Position numbers and translations under genes: made by a program
NCBI GenBank assembly: GCA_016748015.1
Contig: JAAOMT010000494.1
Coordinates: 211,156-275,155, forward strand
Direction: 5' to 3'
Source: Geosiphon pyriformis
Taxonomy: Eukaryota; Glomeromycota; Glomeromycetes; Archaeosporales; Geosiphonaceae
DNA: 64,000 nt
The notes under the pieces: generated by a model
The model's input: only the letters and a program-made list of their open reading frames with translations
What the model was told of the DNA's origin: nothing
The model's database searches: none
Shown here: positions 37,696 to 41,098 of the stretch, piece after piece
Position numbering within the stretch: the first letter of the stretch is position 1
Layout of the letters: each line of letters starts with the position of its first letter

Positions 37696-39640
37696 ATGTC
37701 TATTTCTGAATCATTGTTTCGTAAGTCCGCTCCAAATGACCGTGCGTACAAAGCAATTTGTCGTGCTAATGAATTCTACGTGTCAAAAAATTATCGCCGT
37801 GCCATAGGTTTGTTGAGAATTAATGTGAATATAATAAAATTACATAATGATAATTATTTTGACTTTGTTATTTTCGCACTCCTTATTCTTGTTAGTTTTT
37901 TTCCAACTTAAAAGATGAATACTCAAAAGCATTAAGGCTATCTCAACCCAACATGGATCCTAAAAAGGCGTCAGACTTTTCAGCATTATTATTCGGTAAT
38001 CGTAGTGCGTGTTATTTTGAGAAGAAACTTTACCAGGATGCCGAGAAAGATGCCGCTCAAATGATTCGTATGCGGCCAGAGTGGGGGAAGGTACGTTGAA
38101 CAAATTTTTAGTAGTGAATAAATTTTGAAAATTCAATTTTGCGAAACTTTTCACTCTTTCCTTTCTAATTTAAATTTAAAAAAAGAACCTTATTGGCAAG
38201 ATTTTATTATGCCTTCAATATTTAATAATGATGGTTTAAGTGAAGGGAGAAAAGCAATTGTCCCGTTTTTTGTAATTTTAAACTATTCCTCACATTTATC
38301 CAATTATGAAATTAATCTTTGGTTAGGGATATTACAGACGAGCAGAAGCACTCATAGAACTCCAACAATTTGACGAAGCAATTGAATATTACCAAGAGTC
38401 ACAGCGACTGGTAAGTAAAACATTAAAAGGAACTCATTAAAAGTTTCCTTAATTTTGTGGTTGCCTCAATGATTCTTTTAGGAACTATCTCATAAAGTTC
38501 CAAAAATCTTACATTTAGGACTCACAGAACCCAAAAATTCCTCTCCGAATTGCACATTCGCTAATCCTAAAGGATAATCACGAAATGGGTAAGTCTCGAT
38601 TGTCAGATGACTTTGTTGCATTTCCCCGATTTGTCACTGCACGTTATTTTAATTTCCGATGTCCACTATAGATATTTATTGACAAAATCCTATTGTTACT
38701 TTTTCCTCTTTTTACGAAGGAATCGCCATATGCCCGCTTGTGCCCGGAAGAGATATATGCCTCCGAAAAACTGCCGTATCGAATCCAGTCCAAGCAAAGA
38801 TTTTTAAATTCGCGATTGAAATGAAAAATATGATTTATGTGATTGTTGACTTGGAGAGCCGAAAATGTTTGGTAGTCGATGCGGTAAGAAACGAGTTTCA
38901 AGGTTTAGATATTAAAAATAATAAAACGGTGCTGGTTGTTTAAATTCAAGATCTCAATGGTATTTATTCATTCAAGAAGTTGTTTTCGACAATTAGTGCT
39001 GGGACGTGAACGGAATTCTCAAATTTATCAAATCCAAAAAATGGAAATTAGTGGGAGCTATTGTAACACATTATCATTTCGACCATGTTGGAGGTAAATT
39101 GAATGTAACTGAAATCCTGTTTTGAATTATTTCTCAGTTAAATTTATTCTCCATCCAGGGAGACCCCCACCGCCATACGATCAATTTTTAATACAAGTCC
39201 CGGGACTTGCCACCCTTTTAAAACGGTTTTCTTCATTGAAGGCATATGTGCATCCTCTCGATCTTCCATATCTCCTTGAGGCGAACCCCGGCCTCGCAAA
39301 TTACAAAAATAAATTTGTAGAGACAACAGGGCAGCATATAGAAACTTTGGGAACAAAGGTGAAACTTCGATTTATTCATGTCCCAGGACATACCGAAGGT
39401 AGTCAAGCAATAATGGTGAATGAATGTCGTCTTTTGACAGGAGATACTTTAATGTGTGGTTGCATCGGTAGAGTTGACCTTCCAGGTGGTAACGCATGCG
39501 AAATTACAAAGACATTAAAGGAAAGATTGAGTCAATTGGAAGATGGGATAATTATATTACCCGGGCATGATTATGGTGGGGAGTGGACCACAATCGGAAT
39601 GGAGAGGGAACGTCAGATTGTCGGGAATATAGTGAAATGA
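37696..39640 (+). CDS. TPR + metallo-beta-lactamase-fold hydrolase fusion
   Basis: Seven exons: 37696-37807, 37915-38090, 38327-38410, 38519-38588, 38720-38883, 38997-39093, 39159-39640; all GT-AG, 394 residues. Residues about 17-130 are TPR-like helices (ANEFYVSKNYRRAIDEYSKA, GNRSACYFEKKLYQDAEKDA, GYYRRAEALIELQQFDEAIE). Residues about 150-394 are a glyoxalase II/LACTB2-like hydrolase with all metal ligands: T-H227-Y-H229-F-D231-H232-V-G-G, H312 in VPGHTEGS, D330 in LLTGDTL, H371 in LPGHDYGG. Between them lies ACWDVNGIL, typical of glyoxalase II relatives. The reaction is probably thioester or phosphoester hydrolysis, but the substrate is unknown. The frame is continuous across the domain junction (exons 4-5), so this is one gene unless transcripts show otherwise. 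Confidence 0.82.
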
Positions 39641-40371: not shown

Positions 40372-40920
40372 TCATGATGTTTGAAAAGATTCTTCTGATG
40401 GCAAAGGATCTTTGGGATGTTTGGCCTTAAAGTATAGTTGAATCAGCAAAAAAAGATTATTGGTATGGGGTTAAAAGCATATGTGAACTGGTACCTCCAT
40501 ATGCTGAACTACAACTTTATAGTTTGCTGCTGGAATCTGTAAACCCGGGATTTCTCTCAATACGTTAGGAGCTTCATCATCATTCAATTAATGGTAAAAG
40601 ATCAAAGCTTGCCTTACAAACGGGGCATTTAAACTGTAACCCAGCTGCACGAGCGTTTAGCTGAGATTTGCCACCTGCCTTGGCATCAGCTTGTTTTTGA
40701 GCTTTCTCCCTTAAGATAGAATTAAAAAATACTGAGGCGATTATCACTTGAAAAATATTTAGAAATTCGGGTTCCTATAACCTACCTGGCTTGTTCCTAG
40801 AGAAAAGAATTTAGAAAAATGATAGATATTTCATGAAAAGAAAGAACAAGCGTTAATCTTTTTGCAATATGTCGGTTTATGAAAAAGTATTAATCAAACC
40901 TTTTGCTTTCCTCTAGCCAT
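40372..40920 (-). CDS. ZNF706/4F5-like mini zinc-finger protein
   Basis: Five minus-strand exons: 40920-40900, 40796-40786, 40709-40613, 40536-40495, 40425-40372; 74 residues. It starts MARGKQKEQAREKAQKQADA, the basic N-terminus shared by ZNF706 and plant relatives. It then forms one C2H2 finger: C39-P-V-C42, then NYKVVVQH55, then KH60PKDPLP. This C-x2-C-x12-H-x4-H spacing and the KHP tail match the family. The model needs an 11-nt exon (40786-40796) and a GC-AG intron after 40613. Reading through instead ends at once without the two His ligands. Relatives are small nuclear or cytosolic proteins, reported as transcription or translation regulators; the function here is inference. Confidence 0.82.
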
Positions 40921-41098
40921 ATTCAACCAACAAAAGTTTGTCGGAAAGAAAAATAATTTAGAACAAAGGGCGTGCCAGATCCCATTTTGCATTCAAATTT
41001 CTATTTATGGATGCCGAGATTGGATTTGACCAATTTCAGATTACCTGCGTGACGCCTAATTTTTAAATAGATAAATTTATCCTTTCCAGACACGTCCA
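40921..41098. promoter_or_regulatory. short bidirectional promoter region
   Basis: Only 178 bp lie between the start codons of the ZNF706-like gene (minus) and the PARN-like gene (plus), so their promoters must overlap. No defined motif was identified. Confidence 0.45.

Follow-up and report, generated by a model that had tools for sequence, protein, structure and literature searches.

Joining of a TPR module to a metallo-enzyme has a precedent in PP5. Among TPR modules that contact chaperones, TPR1 of HOP binds through a carboxylate clamp formed by K8, N12, N43, K73 and R77. On the enzyme side, persulfide dioxygenases (PDOs) of Type I/II carry the motif THxHADHx(T/S), and two GSH-binding positions, the Arg of GRxD and the Tyr of GHDY, are said in PMC6060420 to be conserved across all PDO types. 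A description of a protein fusing a TPR to a metallo-beta-lactamase (MBL) fold was not found in a literature search of titles and abstract openings. The combination of a TPR with an MBL hydrolase appears unusual, both parts being of well-known kinds.

Such a combination is encoded on the forward strand of the window, i.e. the whole analyzed stretch of 64,000 nucleotides from Geosiphon pyriformis (contig JAAOMT010000494.1). Seven exons between 37696 and 39640 splice into a single frame of 394 codons plus stop (Table 1). The gene is intron-rich, all six introns are of the GT-AG type, and the GC3 values of the two halves are nearly equal (0.36 and 0.38). A second close copy of either the TPR half or the MBL half was not found in the 124.7-Mb genome. 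An open frame at 40580-40940 on the reverse strand of the window contains CPVCKASFDLL and, by eye, is reminiscent of small ZNF706/SERF-type zinc-finger proteins.

Table 1. Features of the TPR-MBL gene, with positions in the window.
Feature	Position	Strand	Encoded part	Signals and matches
Exon 1	37696..37807	+	residues 1-37; first half of TPR1	start codon ATG at 37696; GT donor after 37807; residues 23-49 align with HOP and SPAG1 TPRs
Exon 2	37915..38090	+	residues 38-96; remainder of TPR1, TPR2	AG acceptor, GT donor; GNRSACY block aligns with HOP TPR1
Exon 3	38327..38410	+	residues 97-124; TPR3	TPR_2 match 96-128
Exon 4	38519..38588	+	residues 125-148, final codon split; end of TPR3 and probable capping helix (helix predicted)	GT-AG
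Intron 4	38589..38719	+	TPR/MBL boundary	131 bases, phase 1; GTAAGT donor, CGAAG acceptor
Exon 5	38720..38883	+	residues 148-202; N-terminal MBL block with PGRD and IEMKNMIYVIVD	tblastn from residue 154 against actinobacterial MAG MBL; profile from residue 177
Exon 6	38997..39093	+	residues 203-234; THYHFDHVGG metal motif	Lactamase_B 186-235
Exon 7	39159..39640	+	PPPPYDQF loop; ligands H312, D330, H371; stop codon	open frame; matches PDO and GloC-type structures

Both halves of the protein match known families far above chance. The TPR module spans about residues 16-132 and consists of three consecutive repeats of the 34-residue TPR type, which were recognized by Pfam TPR_2 with an E-value of 6.4e-12 (45.1 bits, curated cut-off 27). 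The second half, about residues 150-394, contains a complete MBL fold and was matched by Lactamase_B above the curated cut-off (E 1.6e-12). Together with the splice model, these matches bear out the continuous seven-exon frame of TPR and MBL that had been proposed in the initial annotation. Within the Lactamase_B domain the HxHxDH, H, D, H ligands of the MBL-fold hydrolase superfamily are present as T226-H227-x-H229-x-D231-H232, H312, D330 and H371, so that every ligand named earlier is indeed kept and was numbered correctly. Behind HxHxDHVGG, residues 236-247 in exon 7 form a proline-rich expansion, PPPPYDQFLIQV, which is absent from the aligned bacterial relatives.

Among solved structures in the PDB, the TPR module was best matched by HOP (7kw7, 1elw), SPAG1, TOM70 and PP5, with TPR1 of HOP being the closest. 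As read from the alignment, N25, N66, K96 and R100 of the window protein occupy four of the five positions of the carboxylate clamp, and I21 replaces K8 of HOP. With four clamp positions kept, chaperone docking by this module is a plausible prediction, against which the isoleucine at the fifth counts. The earlier suggestion that the TPR could tether the enzyme to a chaperone thus gains support from the likeness to HOP TPR1, at the level of a plausible prediction.

In the PDB the MBL half matched a protein of its family (9rhq), GloC-type hydrolases, persulfide dioxygenases and ETHE1, and by sequence its affinities within the superfamily lie with the ETHE1/persulfide dioxygenase side. When prokaryotic genomes were scanned, two relatives came to light in MAGs that bear the title Actinomycetes, and 24 of 296 sampled genomes from the phylum of the first relative contained matches at 32-37% identity. 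The resulting bacterial set, which comprises actinobacterial and related MAGs (loci L024-L052), consists of stand-alone MBL proteins that share a GL..LL segment after the metal motif. A profile of these relatives scored the window protein at 140 bits and the next reference, a plasmid PDO, at 123, whereas the best of 200 shuffled copies reached 3.0. Among the reference sequences tested, the window MBL thus appears to fit the bacterial stand-alone subfamily best, with a modest margin over the PDO; this subfamily and the persulfide-dioxygenase relatives suit it better than glyoxalase II does. Its branch in the MBL tree is long, and the tree does not group it firmly with any of the others. A relative of the window protein was not found in viral contigs, either by protein search or with the DNA pattern for HYHxDHxGGxPP.

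A PDO query found no better match in the genome than the window gene, and R339-D341 (GRxD) and Y373 (GHDY) correspond to the Arg and Tyr of the PDO GSH site; both observations would suit a true persulfide dioxygenase, i.e. an ETHE1 orthologue with an acquired TPR that would be the only ETHE1 of this fungus. A TauE/SafE sulfite exporter adjoins the bacterial MBL relative in three of about 23 loci (L034, L038, L047), which would fit the same identity and offers a hint, and only that, of a sulfur function; all three loci share one clade of the MBL tree and therefore may represent a single event. Against ETHE1 orthology, two positions of THYHFDHVG differ from THxHADHx(T/S), the GRVDLPGG loop is nearer to GloC/YcbL-type enzymes, and the exon-by-exon search of the genome can overlook a diverged ETHE1. 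We regard this identification as unlikely. A similarly low chance is given to a glyoxalase II-type thioester hydrolase with a dinuclear zinc site, for which seven of seven dinuclear-site ligands are kept and the GSH_gloB model matches at 7.1e-19; this match scores 68 bits, below the curated cut-off of 200.8, and the protein has no space for the C-terminal GSH-binding domain. By GSH_gloB, two glyoxalase II-like genes are present elsewhere in the genome (G000 C320:319383-320234 (+) and C354:2108267-2109127 (-)), and the C320 gene covers the model's C-terminal half (positions 125-248), where the window protein shows no match. At G000 C373:233152-233655 (-) (L001) the genome has a LACTB2-type gene that continues past PGHG with a C-terminal extension. 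LACTB2 orthology of the window gene was ruled out, as it has no such extension and its product ends 23 residues past H371. Of the label "LACTB2/glyoxalase II-like" given in the initial annotation, the LACTB2 part is consequently dropped and the glyoxalase II part stands only partly, since the genome has separate genes for both, whose C-terminal domains are missing from the window protein.

Whatever its enzymatic identity, the MBL half might belong to a gene of its own, if two neighbouring genes had been mis-joined across intron 4, with exons 1-4 specifying a TPR protein and exons 5-7 an MBL enzyme. The junction falls on the domain boundary, the bacterial relatives are stand-alone proteins, and an internal start at M182 would leave most of the MBL core, which counts against a single protein. 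Read-through of intron 4 meets a stop at once downstream, and a TPR-only product is therefore possible in principle. As TPR homology stops near residue 132 and MBL homology starts at 154, the joint itself (about residues 133-153) is predicted from the splice signals alone. However, just 131 bases would lie between the two putative genes, and their donor and acceptor are canonical and agree in phase. Upstream of exon 5, its frame stays open as far back as a TGA at 38680 but contains no ATG, which makes it unlikely that a separate full-length MBL gene has its start there, and the first ATG inside exon 5, M182, lies downstream of the aligned N-terminal block. Most bacterial relatives begin 4-12 residues ahead of the block that tblastn aligned with the start of exon 5, which suggests that the PGRD block is matched in these proteins; the match is suggestive rather than firm, because the profile alignment begins later than the tblastn one, only at residue 177. 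Mis-joined genes are considered quite improbable, and we favour that exons 1-7 encode one protein, a candidate fusion.

Taken together, the locus is best explained as a single-copy nuclear fungal gene whose 394-residue product would combine a partner-binding TPR with a soluble metallo-enzyme of the ETHE1/glyoxalase II branch, a reading to which we assign a probability of about 0.6. The N-terminal TPR would bind a partner; a possible one is an Hsp70 or Hsp90 chaperone, contacted at its acidic C-terminal tail. The C-terminal MBL would act as a soluble, metal-dependent enzyme and, among the sequences tested, is presumably closest to the bacterial stand-alone subfamily; its substrate is probably a thiol-linked small molecule, e.g. 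glutathione persulfide or a thioester. A far bolder proposal, which we hold to be quite improbable, is that in this lineage of fungi the fused HOP-like TPR anchors an enzyme of the ETHE1/glyoxalase II branch to Hsp70 or Hsp90 and so couples the detoxification of sulfur or thiols directly with the chaperone machinery. Should the fusion prove real and conserved, it would provide a compact example of a metabolic metallo-enzyme with a chaperone- or partner-docking module, and its substrate would tell how persulfides are handled by this fungus, in which the genome search found no other ETHE1; if orthologues widely carry the fusion, it would be a routine domain combination.

Compared with TPR1 of HOP/STI1 and the TPR of PP5, the window TPR shares the repeat pattern and, as read from the alignment, four of the five clamp residues but differs in I21, which stands in for the clamp lysine, and in about ten additional residues between the helices of TPR1 and TPR2. 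The MBL fold is common to the window protein and LACTB2, which differ in the C-terminal extension that the genome's own LACTB2 has. With glyoxalase II (HAGH/GloB) and GloC/YcbL it shares the metal ligands, and its GRVDLPGG loop is like that of YcbL/GloC; relative to HAGH, the C-terminal domain is missing and a TPR is added. ETHE1 and the persulfide dioxygenases resemble it in the overall MBL core and at the GRxD and GHDY positions, but it breaks their THxHADHx(T/S) motif and has a TPR where fused PDOs have, e.g., a rhodanese domain. To the bacterial YFRQLL-GRD-type MBL subfamily it is at best 33% identical over 224 residues, the additional GL..LL segment after HxHxDHxGG being common to both, whereas the bacterial proteins begin just ahead of the MBL and have neither the TPR nor the PPPPYDQF expansion of the window protein.
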